A DNA stretch of 64,000 nt from Spirochaetota bacterium (GTDB taxonomy: Bacteria; Spirochaetota; Spirochaetia; Treponematales; UBA12059): NCBI GenBank assembly GCA_026398615.1, contig JAPLSN010000036.1:1-64000 (forward strand), written 5' to 3'. Made by a program: the position numbers and the translations under genes. This document shows positions 52,885 through 56,908 of the stretch, piece after piece. The notes beneath the pieces were generated by a model, which saw only the letters and a program-made list of their open reading frames with translations, did no database searches and was not told the DNA's origin. Every line of letters starts with the position of its first letter. Position 1 is the first letter of the stretch.

Positions 52885-53087
52885 CGCGTCGCCGTGCCGC
52901 CGAGCCCGATGAGCAGGGCCGACAGCGCCCCGAGGAAAGCCGGGAGCGCCGCTTCCCGCCGCAAGGAGGCCAGCTGCCGCTCGCGGCGTTCGCGCCCCCG
53001 CGGGCAGGACGCCCGGGGTCGGACGCCCTCCCTTTCCAGCGCGTCCAGCTCCGACGAAAGCCACTCGATCCTGCGGCGTTCGCTCAT
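52839..53087 (-). CDS. 82-aa single-helix membrane protein, coupled to Hsp33
   Basis: Starts MSERRRIEWLSSELDALEREG, a charged helix, then one membrane helix (ALPAFLGALSALLIGLGG) and a short tail. The start ATG overlaps the Hsp33 stop (ATGA, 53084-53087), with GGGAGGTGA inside the Hsp33 gene as binding site. The final ~15 codons run antisense into the kinase gene, so the true convergent overlap is 46 bp unless a frame change shortens it. Function unknown. Confidence 0.55.
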   Translation of the reverse strand: MSERRRIEWLSSELDALEREGVRPRASCPRGRERRERQLASLRREAALPAFLGALSALLIGLGGTATRYAFLPMKALIFSAR

Positions 53088-54049
53088 CGCGTCACCTCCC
53101 GATGGTCCCCGCCGCGGCGATTCTCGGCCTCGTACAGCGTTTCGATATCTTCCTTCCCGTAGTGATAGGCCGAGCCGCAGTTGTGGCATATTACCTCCAC
53201 GGGGAAGGGTCCGTCAGTCGCGAGCCCGCGGAGTTCGTCCGCCCCCATGGACGATATGAAGACAGCCAGCCGTTCCCGGGTGCAGCCGCAGAAAAACTCG
53301 GCGTTCTTTTCCCCGAGGACGTTCACGTCGAAAAACGGGAAAGCCCGGTTCATGAAATCGCGGCGGCTCCCGCCGCCTGCGAGGAATTCGCCGATCGAGG
53401 GCAAGCCTTCCACGAGCCGTTCCACGCGGTCGGCGGCATCGTCCGGAGCTCCCGGCAGGAGCTGGAGATAGAGCCCACCGGCGCCGATCGCCCGACCCCG
53501 GGCATCGAACTTGACGCTCAGCGAAAAAGACGTCTTGACCTGTTCGGATTCCAGGTAGTATCGCGCGAGGGATCCCGCGATGCCGCGTTGCCGCACGGCG
53601 ACCCTGCCCGAAAACGGATCGGACTTGCCTTCCATGTACCTGGTGACGGTCAGTGAACCATCACCGAGCCAGGGAGCCGTATCGAAGCTTTCAAGCGGGC
53701 GGTCGACGGGTATCGGGGCGTTGAAAAGGCGGCCGCGAACCTCGCCGCGGGCGGACGCTTCCACGGAAAACCCATGGACCGGGCCATCCCCGTCGAAACG
53801 GACGGTCAGGCGGTCATCCCCCTTGATCGTCGTGGACAGGAGGGCCGCGGCCGTATACGCCTGGCCGAGGATAAGCGTTTCCAGGATGCCGAGGCAGTGG
53901 TTGGCGCGCATCCGGTTGACCATGTTCGTGCTGCCCGCGATCGCGCCGCGGACCGTATCGCCTTCGAGGGTGAACACGGTGGCGCCGTCCGGGGCGACTC
54001 GGCCGAGGAGGGCCATGAGATCGATGTCGTCGATGGGCCGTGAAATCAT
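53084..54049 (-). CDS. hslO: Redox-regulated chaperone Hsp33
   Basis: 321-aa holdase chaperone activated by oxidative unfolding. The C-terminal zinc switch is complete: C254 and C256 (FCGC), C288 and C291 (CHNC). The N-terminal substrate-binding domain has the family pattern (VRGAI, GDDRLTVRF, GPVHGF). Slightly longer than the E. coli form, with a charged end. Start ATG 54049; the Shine-Dalgarno is poor. A 282-bp divergent region separates it from the 5'-nucleotidase gene. It is coupled to a small membrane protein at its 3' end. Confidence 0.94.
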   Translation of the reverse strand: MISRPIDDIDLMALLGRVAPDGATVFTLEGDTVRGAIAGSTNMVNRMRANHCLGILETLILGQAYTAAALLSTTIKGDDRLTVRFDGDGPVHGFSVEASARGEVRGRLFNAPIPVDRPLESFDTAPWLGDGSLTVTRYMEGKSDPFSGRVAVRQRGIAGSLARYYLESEQVKTSFSLSVKFDARGRAIGAGGLYLQLLPGAPDDAADRVERLVEGLPSIGEFLAGGGSRRDFMNRAFPFFDVNVLGEKNAEFFCGCTRERLAVFISSMGADELRGLATDGPFPVEVICHNCGSAYHYGKEDIETLYEAENRRGGDHREVTR

Positions 54050-54331: not shown

Positions 54332-56203
54332 ATGAGAAAGTACCATCGCCCCGTCATGGCGATCATCGCCGCACTGGCGATCCTCGCTCTTGGTGCCTGC
54401 GCCGGACCGTACGACAAGTACGCCGAGCAGCCCGTCAAGATCACCATTCTCGAAACGACCGACGTCCACGGCATGATCACGCCGATGGACTTCACGAAGA
54501 ACGCCGCGACCGAGTACTCGATCGCGCAGTTCGCGGGGCTGGTCACCGAGAAGCGCCGCTCGGGCGAGCTGCTCCTCGTGGACGGCGGCGACTCTCTCCA
54601 GGGCCAGCCGATCATCTACTACAACAACTTCCTCAAGACCGGCGGCACCCACATCTGGTCCGACGTCGTCAACTGGCTCAGGTACGACGTCGTCACGGTC
54701 GGCAACCACGACATCGAGACCGGTCACCCCGTCTACGACAAGGTCTTCACCCAGTGGCGCGCCACCGTCGTCTGCGCCAATATCCTCAAGAGCGGAACCC
54801 AGGAGCCCTACTTCACACCCTACACGGTCGTCAACAAGGGCGGGATCAAGATCGCCATCCTCGGCATGACCGAACCGGGGATCACCACCCAGCTGCCCGC
54901 GGCTTTCTGGAGCGGCATGGACATCATCGACATGGTGGAGTGCGCGAAGCGCTGGGTCCCCATCATCCAGAAGACGGAGAAACCCGACGTCATTATCGGG
55001 CTCTTCCACTCGGGCCTCGACTACACCTACGGCGGAGCCACCGCCGACACGCAGGGCAATGAGAGCGGCAGCCAGCTCGTCGCCCAGCAGGTCCCCGGCT
55101 TCGACCTCATCCTCGTCGGGCACGACCACAAGGGCTGGGACGGCAAGGGCTGGGATCCCGTGGCCAAGGCCAAGATCGACGTGAAGGACCCGAACGGCAA
55201 GATCGTCCCGATCTTCGGCGGCCTCGACTACGTCCGCTCCGTGCCCGTGATCGAGCTGACCATGGCCTGGGACAAGAAGGCCAGGACCTGGAACAAGACG
55301 ATCGTCGGCAGCCTCGTCGAGATGAAGGGCCTCCCGGTCAACGCCGATTTCATGACGGCCTTCAAGCCCGAGGTCGACGAGTTCGTCGCATGGAAGAACC
55401 AGGTGATCGGTTCCATGAACGGGAAGATCAGCTCGGATGACGCCCTCTTTGGCGACGCCGCCTTTACCGACCTCATCCACCGGCTCCAGATGGAGATCTG
55501 CGCCGATCCCGCCAACGGCCTCAAGCCGGTCCAGGTTTCCTTCGTGGCGCCCCTGTCCCCCACAGCAGTCCTGCCCATCGACCCGAGCGGCAAGGTGACG
55601 ATCGCCGACATGTTCGCCCTCTACAAGTACGAAAACTACCTGTACACGATGGACCTGACCGGCGAGCAGATCAGGAAATTCCTTGAATTCTCCTATGGCA
55701 TGTGGATGGACACGATGACCAAGGCAGGCGACCACATCATAGCCTTCCAGAAGGATCCGTCCGGCGCCCTCATCTTCGACACCCGCAACAACATGACCGC
55801 GACGAAAACCAACCCCTACAATTACGACAGCGCCGCGGGCATCAAGTACACGGTGGACATCACCAAGCCGGTCGGTTCCCGCATCAACATCACGAGCATG
55901 GCCGACGGCACCCCCTTCAGCCTCACGAAAACCTACTCGGTCGCCATCAACTCCTACCGCGGCTCCGGCGGCGGCGACCACCTGACCAAGGGCGTCGGAC
56001 TCGACCCGCTCGCGCTCAAGCAGCTCAAGCTCGTCACCTCGTCCACGACCAAGGACCTGCGCTACTACTTCATCAAGTGGTTCCAGAAACAGACCGGGCC
56101 GATCACCCCCACCAGGGACGACAACTGGAAGGTGATGCCCGAGGATCTCGCAGCCGCGGGCAAGGCCCTCGATTACCCGCTCGTTTATCCCCCGCAGAAA
56201 TAG
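54332..56203 (+). CDS. 5'-nucleotidase lipoprotein (UshA/CpdB-like)
   Basis: 623-aa surface or periplasmic lipoprotein. Lipobox LGAC with C23. Metallophosphoesterase domain with TTDVHG, DGGDS, GNHD, FHSG and GHDH motifs, all present, and a C-terminal 5'-nucleotidase domain (LSPTAVLPI, YRGSGGGDHL). It hydrolyses external nucleotides so that nucleoside and phosphate can be imported. Start ATG 54332 has GGAGG at 54322-54326; the in-frame extension to 54116 crosses the regulatory region. A tetraloop terminator follows. The upstream palindrome suggests specific regulation. Confidence 0.92.
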   Translation: MRKYHRPVMAIIAALAILALGACAGPYDKYAEQPVKITILETTDVHGMITPMDFTKNAATEYSIAQFAGLVTEKRRSGELLLVDGGDSLQGQPIIYYNNFLKTGGTHIWSDVVNWLRYDVVTVGNHDIETGHPVYDKVFTQWRATVVCANILKSGTQEPYFTPYTVVNKGGIKIAILGMTEPGITTQLPAAFWSGMDIIDMVECAKRWVPIIQKTEKPDVIIGLFHSGLDYTYGGATADTQGNESGSQLVAQQVPGFDLILVGHDHKGWDGKGWDPVAKAKIDVKDPNGKIVPIFGGLDYVRSVPVIELTMAWDKKARTWNKTIVGSLVEMKGLPVNADFMTAFKPEVDEFVAWKNQVIGSMNGKISSDDALFGDAAFTDLIHRLQMEICADPANGLKPVQVSFVAPLSPTAVLPIDPSGKVTIADMFALYKYENYLYTMDLTGEQIRKFLEFSYGMWMDTMTKAGDHIIAFQKDPSGALIFDTRNNMTATKTNPYNYDSAAGIKYTVDITKPVGSRINITSMADGTPFSLTKTYSVAINSYRGSGGGDHLTKGVGLDPLALKQLKLVTSSTTKDLRYYFIKWFQKQTGPITPTRDDNWKVMPEDLAAAGKALDYPLVYPPQK

Positions 56204-56257: not shown

Positions 56258-56286
56258 TTGTCTCCGCCCCGGATCACGAGTATCCT
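56258..56286 (+). promoter_or_regulatory. Promoter of the hsp20 leader
   Basis: TTGTCT (56258-56263), 17-bp spacer, TATCCT (56281-56286), four of six matches each. Transcription would start near 56293, just before the first leader hairpin, giving a leader of about 100 nt. Confidence 0.5.
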
Positions 56287-56298
56287 TAACGAAAGACC

Positions 56299-56388
56299 GG
56301 TGCGCGCCCGACAGGGGCGCACCCGGACGCCGCTCCGTACGGAGGGCGATCATGACAGCCCGAAAGGGCATCCTCGCTTGTTGGAGGA
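56299..56388 (+). promoter_or_regulatory. Structured hsp20 leader, candidate RNA thermometer
   Basis: Four predicted hairpins in order. I: GGTGCGC (56299-56305) with GCGCACC (56317-56323), plus CCC/GGG inside. II: CGCC-g-CTCC (56328-56336) with GGAGGGCG (56341-56348), hiding the Shine-Dalgarno of an upstream ORF. III: GCCC-GAAA-GGGC (56358-56369). IV: TCCTC (56371-56375) with GAGGA (56384-56388), which pairs with the hsp20 Shine-Dalgarno. Weak pairing over the Shine-Dalgarno of a small heat-shock gene is the hallmark of RNA thermometers such as ROSE elements. The structures are read by eye, not folded. Confidence 0.55.
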
Positions 56389-56396
56389 CTCCATGA
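56352..56396 (+). CDS. 14-codon leader ORF coupled to hsp20
   Basis: Codes for MTARKGILACWRTP. GGAGGG at 56341-56346 lies five bases upstream, an ideal site. Its TGA overlaps the hsp20 ATG as ATGA (56393-56396). Ribosomes on it would pass through hairpins III and IV and open the hsp20 Shine-Dalgarno. It is too short for homology evidence, so translation is inferred from the site and the exact overlap. Confidence 0.5.
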   Translation: MTARKGILACWRTP

Positions 56397-56908
56397 AAGG
56401 CAACCGCATGTATGTCGACATCGGCTCTATGCTCGACGAAATCTTCGACGCCGCCAAGAACTTCAGCGAAACCTTCCGCGACAACTTCGACCCCACCAAG
56501 GGACCTTGCTCGACGTTCGACCACGACGAGAACGCCGACTGGTATCCTTCCTATTCGTATCCGCCGATGAATATCTACCTCACCGCGGACCGTTCCATCG
56601 TATTCGAGTTCGCCGTGGCCGGCTTCGACGAAAAGGACATTTCGCTTTCGTTCCAGGGCGACTACATGCTCTTCGCCGCCCGCATGGGCCTCGATCCCGT
56701 CCCCGAGGAGGGCGTCCGCTACTTCAAGCGCCGCCTCAAACTCAAGGACATCGAAAAGCAGAAATACTACGTCCCGGCCGACAAGTTCGACCAGGAAAAG
56801 GTGAAGGCAGTCTTCAGGAACGGCATCCTCAAGGTTTCGGTGCCCCCCAAGGACACGACCGAGACCACCGAAGGCGTCCGTATAGATATCGTCAAGGAAG
56901 GCGAATAG
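56393..56908 (+). CDS. Small heat-shock protein Hsp20
   Basis: 171-aa alpha-crystallin-family holdase. The N-terminal region of about 60 residues carries a phenylalanine-rich amphipathic part (LDEIFDAAKNFSETFRDNF). The alpha-crystallin domain runs about 62-155, with EFAVAGFDEKDISLSF, RYFKRRLKLKD and AVFRNGILKVSVP, the last holding the conserved A-x3-NGxL motif. The C-terminal IxI/V-type tail is seen as VRIDIV. Start ATG 56393 has GGAGG at 56383-56387, part of a predicted hairpin. A 14-codon ORF ends on its start. Confidence 0.92.
   Translation: MKGNRMYVDIGSMLDEIFDAAKNFSETFRDNFDPTKGPCSTFDHDENADWYPSYSYPPMNIYLTADRSIVFEFAVAGFDEKDISLSFQGDYMLFAARMGLDPVPEEGVRYFKRRLKLKDIEKQKYYVPADKFDQEKVKAVFRNGILKVSVPPKDTTETTEGVRIDIVKEGE

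Follow-up and report, generated by a model that had tools for sequence, protein, structure and literature searches.

The window analysed here, a stretch of 64,000 nucleotides on contig C9 of a 3.38 Mb spirochaete genome (G000), carries an hsp20 gene encoding a small heat-shock protein (sHSP). The gene upstream of hsp20 stops at 56203 and is followed by a strong hairpin; hence, the hsp20 leader is probably a separate transcript of its own. The promoter-like pair pointed out in the initial annotation is present, although it is weak and was missed by a promoter scan with a 9-of-12 threshold, which reported none for this leader. Judging from this pair, transcription is expected to start near 56291-56293, and from this start, on which the length depends, about 100 nt containing four hairpins lead to the hsp20 ATG. 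The features of the locus are the following:

56258..56286, + strand: weak sigma-70-like promoter (TTGTCT, 17 nt, TATCCT), read by eye, 8/12 consensus positions.
56299..56323, + strand: H0, a 5' hairpin in which one G (56306) is bulged, GGTGCGC-G-CCC(GACA)GGG-GCGCACC; bulged-G hairpin search and RNAfold.
56328..56348, + strand: H1, the conserved bulged-G hairpin, CGCC-G(56332)-CTCC(GTAC)GGAG-GGCG; covariation, unbiased hairpin scan, model R2 and RNAfold.
56352..56396, + strand: 14-codon ORF MTARKGILACWRTP, the upstream ORF (uORF) of the initial annotation; read from the sequence, unconserved and judged incidental.
56358..56369, + strand: H2, GCCC-GAAA-GGGC, without a bulge and variable among relatives; RNAfold.
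56371..56388, + strand: Shine-Dalgarno (SD) hairpin, TCCTC(GCTTGTTG)GAGGA, which covers the hsp20 SD; RNAfold.
56383..56387, + strand: hsp20 SD, GGAGG; read from the sequence, computed unpaired probability 0.17 at 37 C.
56393..56908, + strand: hsp20, small heat-shock protein of 171 aa; Pfam HSP20, E 7.6e-9.

Near hsp20, on the opposite strand (53084-54049, -), a gene for an Hsp33-like redox chaperone (C-terminal CGC...CHNC) was recognised by eye.

All four hairpins (H0, H1, H2 and the SD hairpin) are predicted by RNAfold, in agreement with the initial annotation. It had also correctly described the pairing of TCCTC with the hsp20 GGAGG region, which is the SD hairpin at 56371-56388, and the pairing of the uORF SD (CTCC-GTAC-GGAG), which is H1, the 3' arm of H1 being that SD. 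The SD hairpin has an alternative pairing, TC-G-CTT(GTTG)GAGGA, where UCGCU (56374-56378) faces AGGA (56385-56388). The window contains two bulged-G hairpins, H0 and H1, and the SD hairpin is able to form a third one.

Concerning the comparison with other spirochaetes, Hsp20 matches at E<=1e-3 were obtained in 84 of 99 relatives, a count that takes in distant sHSPs, and 80 Hsp20 loci with organism names were retrieved. The counts given below are based either on 86 leaders or on 112 distinct hsp20-family leaders; the relatives are mostly metagenome-assembled genomes, and related sequences in these counts are not independent. After alignment of the leaders by their start codons, a recurrent hairpin was found in which a small loop tops a C-Y-C(C) inner stem, and a single bulged G separates this stem from at least four outer pairs. 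The evidence for it comes from three non-circular tests, and earlier hairpin lists, which had been chosen by pairing, were left out as evidence. An unbiased scan, in which any hairpin with one bulged base on either side was compared with shuffled leaders, returned a 5'-side bulged-G hairpin in 92/112 leaders against 10.7 expected. The other bases bulged on the 5' side were counted 15 (A), 10 (U) and 6 (C) times and those on the 3' side 6 to 14 times per base, 10-12 being expected for each. Furthermore, the H1 core was found from sequence alone in 63 of the 86 leaders. In the set chosen by sequence, the outer four H1 pairs are 88% complementary, versus 59 +/- 2% when the 3' flanks are exchanged and 27-31% when they are slid.

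Compensatory changes were scored on two ungapped alignments, one of which included the window and diverged paralogues. The scores were 0.451 (shuffled 0.222) and 0.456 (shuffled 0.140), and none of 500 shuffles was as high in either. The initial annotation had held that a lack of covariation would speak against its proposal, and such a lack is strongly contradicted by these values. In four leaders (L004, L026, L087 and L183), U-A replaces C-G directly below the bulge, with the bulged G kept. As far as the sequence comparison goes, what was taken for a hairpin of the uORF SD, H1, belongs to a strongly conserved type of bulged-G hairpin, of which it is one copy. The alternative that the 5' arm of H1 pairs with the hsp20 SD was rejected by eye, as the U/C change in H1 does not track the SD.

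By comparison, the element is made up of one to three short hairpins between the promoter and the start codon, each with a single bulged G on the 5' strand that lies 2-5 pairs below the small loop. At least two non-overlapping bulged-G hairpins occur in 57/112 leaders (2.5 expected in shuffles) and three in 13/112 (0 expected), the other bulge bases being near chance; many hsp20 leaders have one clear bulged-G hairpin only.

A model of the hairpin (R2), trained on 27 H1 hairpins, was applied to 59 whole genomes. Its 28 matches with E<=0.0033 all precede hsp20-family genes, diverged paralogues included, in a check against the positions of the Hsp20 matches and the retrieved loci. Many of these matches are training-set hairpins, and the informative point is that equally high scores are reached by paralogues outside the set (in G021 and G020) and by no gene of another kind. 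In the genome of the window, the hsp20 leader reached 36 bits at H1 and the next match 22. The next tier of matches (G008, G014, G004, G018, G015 and G020) precedes one second gene family, characterized by a signal peptide and GVFNIA-type repeats, for which no Pfam family was found. It is present in 27 of the 59 relatives and in the genome of the window (G000:C9:109883, L268). In the leaders of this family (L255-L276), two bulged-G hairpins form a compact unit directly after a TATA-like -10. H1 (GUGC-G-CUCC-GUAC-GGAG-GCAC), which covaries in this family too, is followed by an SD hairpin such as CACUC-G-CC..GG-GAGUG, and this second bulged-G hairpin masks the SD. H1 together with a CUCGC anti-SD strand was recognised, by detection or by eye, in 18 of 21 leaders inspected, and in L265 UCGCU lies opposite AGGA, i.e. 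the ROSE motif. The bulged-G element sits almost only before hsp20 genes and this second gene family.

Across the phylum (120 genomes), R2 gave only two further matches that reached E 0.01, both in other families outside the order; both lie inside stretches with long overlapping open frames and were judged to be chance. In the genomes searched of the third family of the order (f3), there was neither an R2 match nor a close Hsp20 orthologue. Two other search strategies were discarded: the plain pattern CCGCTC-N3-6-GAGGG gave about as many matches in 197 genomes as its reversed control and is too unspecific, and the matches of a model with a 4-nt loop (R1) beyond hsp20 leaders were mostly intragenic or terminator-like.

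Regarding the masking of the SD, its computed unpaired probability in the window is 0.16-0.17 at 15-37 C and goes from 0.16 at 15 C to 0.26 at 65 C, a slight melting calculated with folding energies that do not include the non-canonical pairs known from ROSE. Shuffled sequences hide the SD as much as the 112 leaders do (0.54 in leaders vs 0.46 in shuffles and 0.40 vs 0.38). Hence, the role for which the element is conserved is not masking, and as a shared function masking is unsupported over the whole leader set. In the clade of the window and in several others, a hairpin with CUCGC as its anti-SD strand covers the SD. The layout of the window is found in L018, L200 and L201, and with variations in L005, L006, L008, L016, L020, L021, L024 and L186. 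A bulged-G hairpin over the SD was counted in 11/54 leaders in one part of the order and in 2/58 in the other. In the Breznakiella-like group, which was assigned by locus names and handles, the SD is mostly open and the bulged-G hairpins are kept. Masking is thus limited to some members, whereas the part that is conserved is the bulged-G hairpin. The initial annotation had suggested a thermometer that hides the SD; the leader is indeed a conserved structured RNA with a predicted masked SD in the window, but this masking is not general in relatives. In the Breznakiella-like leaders L028, L031, L061 and L067-L112, AGGC of codons 2-3 (ATGAAAGGC) is able to pair with a GCCU that follows the SD, which puts the hsp20 start codon in a small loop.

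The initial annotation had gone further, proposing a two-stage thermometer in which warming opens the SD of the uORF and the ribosomes on this uORF then open the hsp20 SD. The ORF itself, its GGAGGG at 5-nt spacing and its ATGA on the hsp20 ATG (56393) are genuine. Nevertheless, this overlap is expected by chance, since hsp20 starts with ATGAAA and supplies TGA to any ORF open in that frame. An ORF of at least five codons ending at or adjoining the hsp20 start is present in 42/86 leaders, and an ATG with an SD for an ORF ending at hsp20 in only 3/86, at three unrelated places. The start site reads GATCATGA in the window versus GATCAGCG (L005), GATCAACG (L006) and GATCCACG (L008) in its nearest relatives, so the start is absent from these three leaders, and a lack of the uORF in relatives was what the annotation itself had named as speaking against it. 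Moreover, the uORF SD is the 3' arm of H1, a hairpin conserved for its structure, and its computed unpaired probability rises only from 0.00 (15 C) to 0.02 (65 C). Compared by calculation with the hsp20 SD, this arm is the most heat-stable part, and for this reason warming would not free the uORF first. In the window, RNAfold also pairs the start region of the uORF with that of hsp20 (UCAUG with CAUGA), which was seen in no relative inspected. The two-stage mechanism is scarcely credible with these data, and the 14-codon uORF is almost certainly accidental and without a conserved role, to judge from the relatives and the predicted folding.

The leader was also compared with known RNA classes. 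In Rfam 15, no family was at or above its gathering threshold in the window, and lax thresholds gave weak matches far below the cut-off; a Guanidine-III riboswitch match (E 1.2, 12.6 bits vs a cut-off of 36) was considered chance. ROSE (RF00435) and ROSE_2 (RF01832) gave no match in the hsp20 leader up to E 10, and the anti-SD strand, UCCUCGCUU, does not have the four U paired with the SD that are typical of FourU. The bulged-G hsp20 element was not found in Rfam or in the open-access papers searched. The window leader matches the layout of ROSE-like elements (Bradyrhizobium hspA, Escherichia coli and Pseudomonas ibpA), which lie in sHSP 5' UTRs, measure from 60 to more than 100 nt and contain two to four hairpins, and by calculation its SD is masked at low temperature (unpaired 0.16 at 25 C). 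ROSE-like elements pair the SD with a strand of the UYGCU type that has a bulged G, and the window leader may do so too. The Pseudomonas elements combine a stable conserved first hairpin, whose role is unclear, with a weak SD hairpin that contains U(U/C)GCU (PMC3669281), and a bulged G opposite the SD has been reported for ROSE (PMC9450479). In the window UCGCU faces AGGA, yet RNAfold prefers UCCUC/GAGGA with the same SD, and the exact motif is present in only 11/112 leaders. On the other hand, ROSE-like elements belong to Proteobacteria and the element described here to spirochaetes, the Rfam ROSE models miss the spirochaete leader, and its bulged-G core recurs away from the SD and is kept even where the SD is open. 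ROSE-G of ABC transporter genes, reported from Pseudomonadota, has CUGCU with a second G bulged opposite it, and sits on the SD (PMC12857270). It shares with the present element a bulged G on the anti-SD strand with C-G pairs on both sides, whereas H1 has a single bulge and does not lie on an SD.

Regarding all these data, it is rather likely that this spirochaete order has, in the hsp20 leader, a conserved and clade-specific cis-regulatory RNA of ROSE-related design for translational heat control. Translational control is suggested by the location of the element between the promoter and the SD, and heat as the signal by the genes being sHSP genes and by the resemblance of the SD hairpin to ROSE. 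The translation of hsp20 would be controlled in response to heat, the SD hairpin being the weak part that opens. H0 and H1 would be the stable parts that stay folded, which could hold the shape of the leader and protect its 5' end or act as a docking site, and the uORF would have no conserved part in it.

A simpler view would be that of a plain ROSE-class thermometer in which the SD hairpin alone matters and H0 and H1 are folding aids or 5'-end stabilisers, a role suggested for hairpin I of Pseudomonas ibpA (PMC3669281). UCGCU lies opposite AGGA in the window and near the SD in ten other leaders, and there is precedent for two to four hairpins before an sHSP gene in that same study. However, this is unlikely, given that the conservation of H1 extends to many more leaders than that of the SD hairpin and includes a single unpaired base, and that the Breznakiella-like group keeps H1 without a covered SD; besides, a mere stabiliser needs no bulged G, and the Rfam ROSE models fail. 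A DNA operator, with a repressor on an inverted repeat close to the start site, would agree with the position of H1 soon after a -10-like box in many relatives. This is very improbable: one half-site would have an extra G, the loop length is 3-7 and the distance from the hairpin to the hsp20 start codon 31-116 in the leaders compared. Moreover, G-U pairs exceed C-A pairs in the outer stem (21 vs 5; 19 vs 4 in the sequence-chosen set), as would be expected if the hsp20 sense strand acts as RNA, but not for an operator in the DNA.

The bulged-G hairpins could also be repeated protein-binding sites, most simply for Hsp20, so that free Hsp20 would block its own translation and heat-denatured clients would remove it. 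What is conserved is the bulged G and not the masking of the SD, the hairpins stand in tandem, and the motif precedes hsp20 paralogues and a second gene family, all of which points in this direction and makes it a possibility worth keeping, though a doubtful one, as many leaders have a single clear bulged-G hairpin. IbpA of gamma-proteobacteria represses its own translation via the ibpA 5' UTR (PMC10474464) and would be a possible analogue, an sHSP controlling its own message. It is also conceivable, if speculative, that the tandem hairpins are a protein-read signal with which an oligomeric chaperone such as Hsp20 would bind its own leader and that of a second, surface-type protein, the unfolded-protein load and not temperature as such setting translation. 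An arginine of the window Hsp20 presumably aligns with R93 of IbpA and was counted for the docking of Hsp20, but this position is probably common in sHSPs and is not diagnostic.

Being a strongly covarying regulatory RNA of one bacterial order and linked almost exclusively to small heat-shock genes, the element would extend the ROSE-like design to spirochaetes. Since the bulged G and the masked SD, usually seen together, are separated here, the role of the bulged G becomes testable, as does that of the stable 5' hairpins, a puzzling part of ROSE elements. The presence of H1 in Breznakiella homolactica RmG30 (L082, complete genome) makes such tests possible in a named strain.

Finally, H1-like hairpins were observed before other genes. 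In genus g8, an H1-type hairpin with compensated outer stems lies shortly before the start of an MFS transporter gene (L145, L146, L154 and L254), and in these leaders the 5' arm of H1 might find a pairing partner in a GGTCGGGCGGGAG stretch ahead of the ATG. Another H1-like hairpin is located near a promoter-like stretch before a radical-SAM-like gene (L246, G041:C80).
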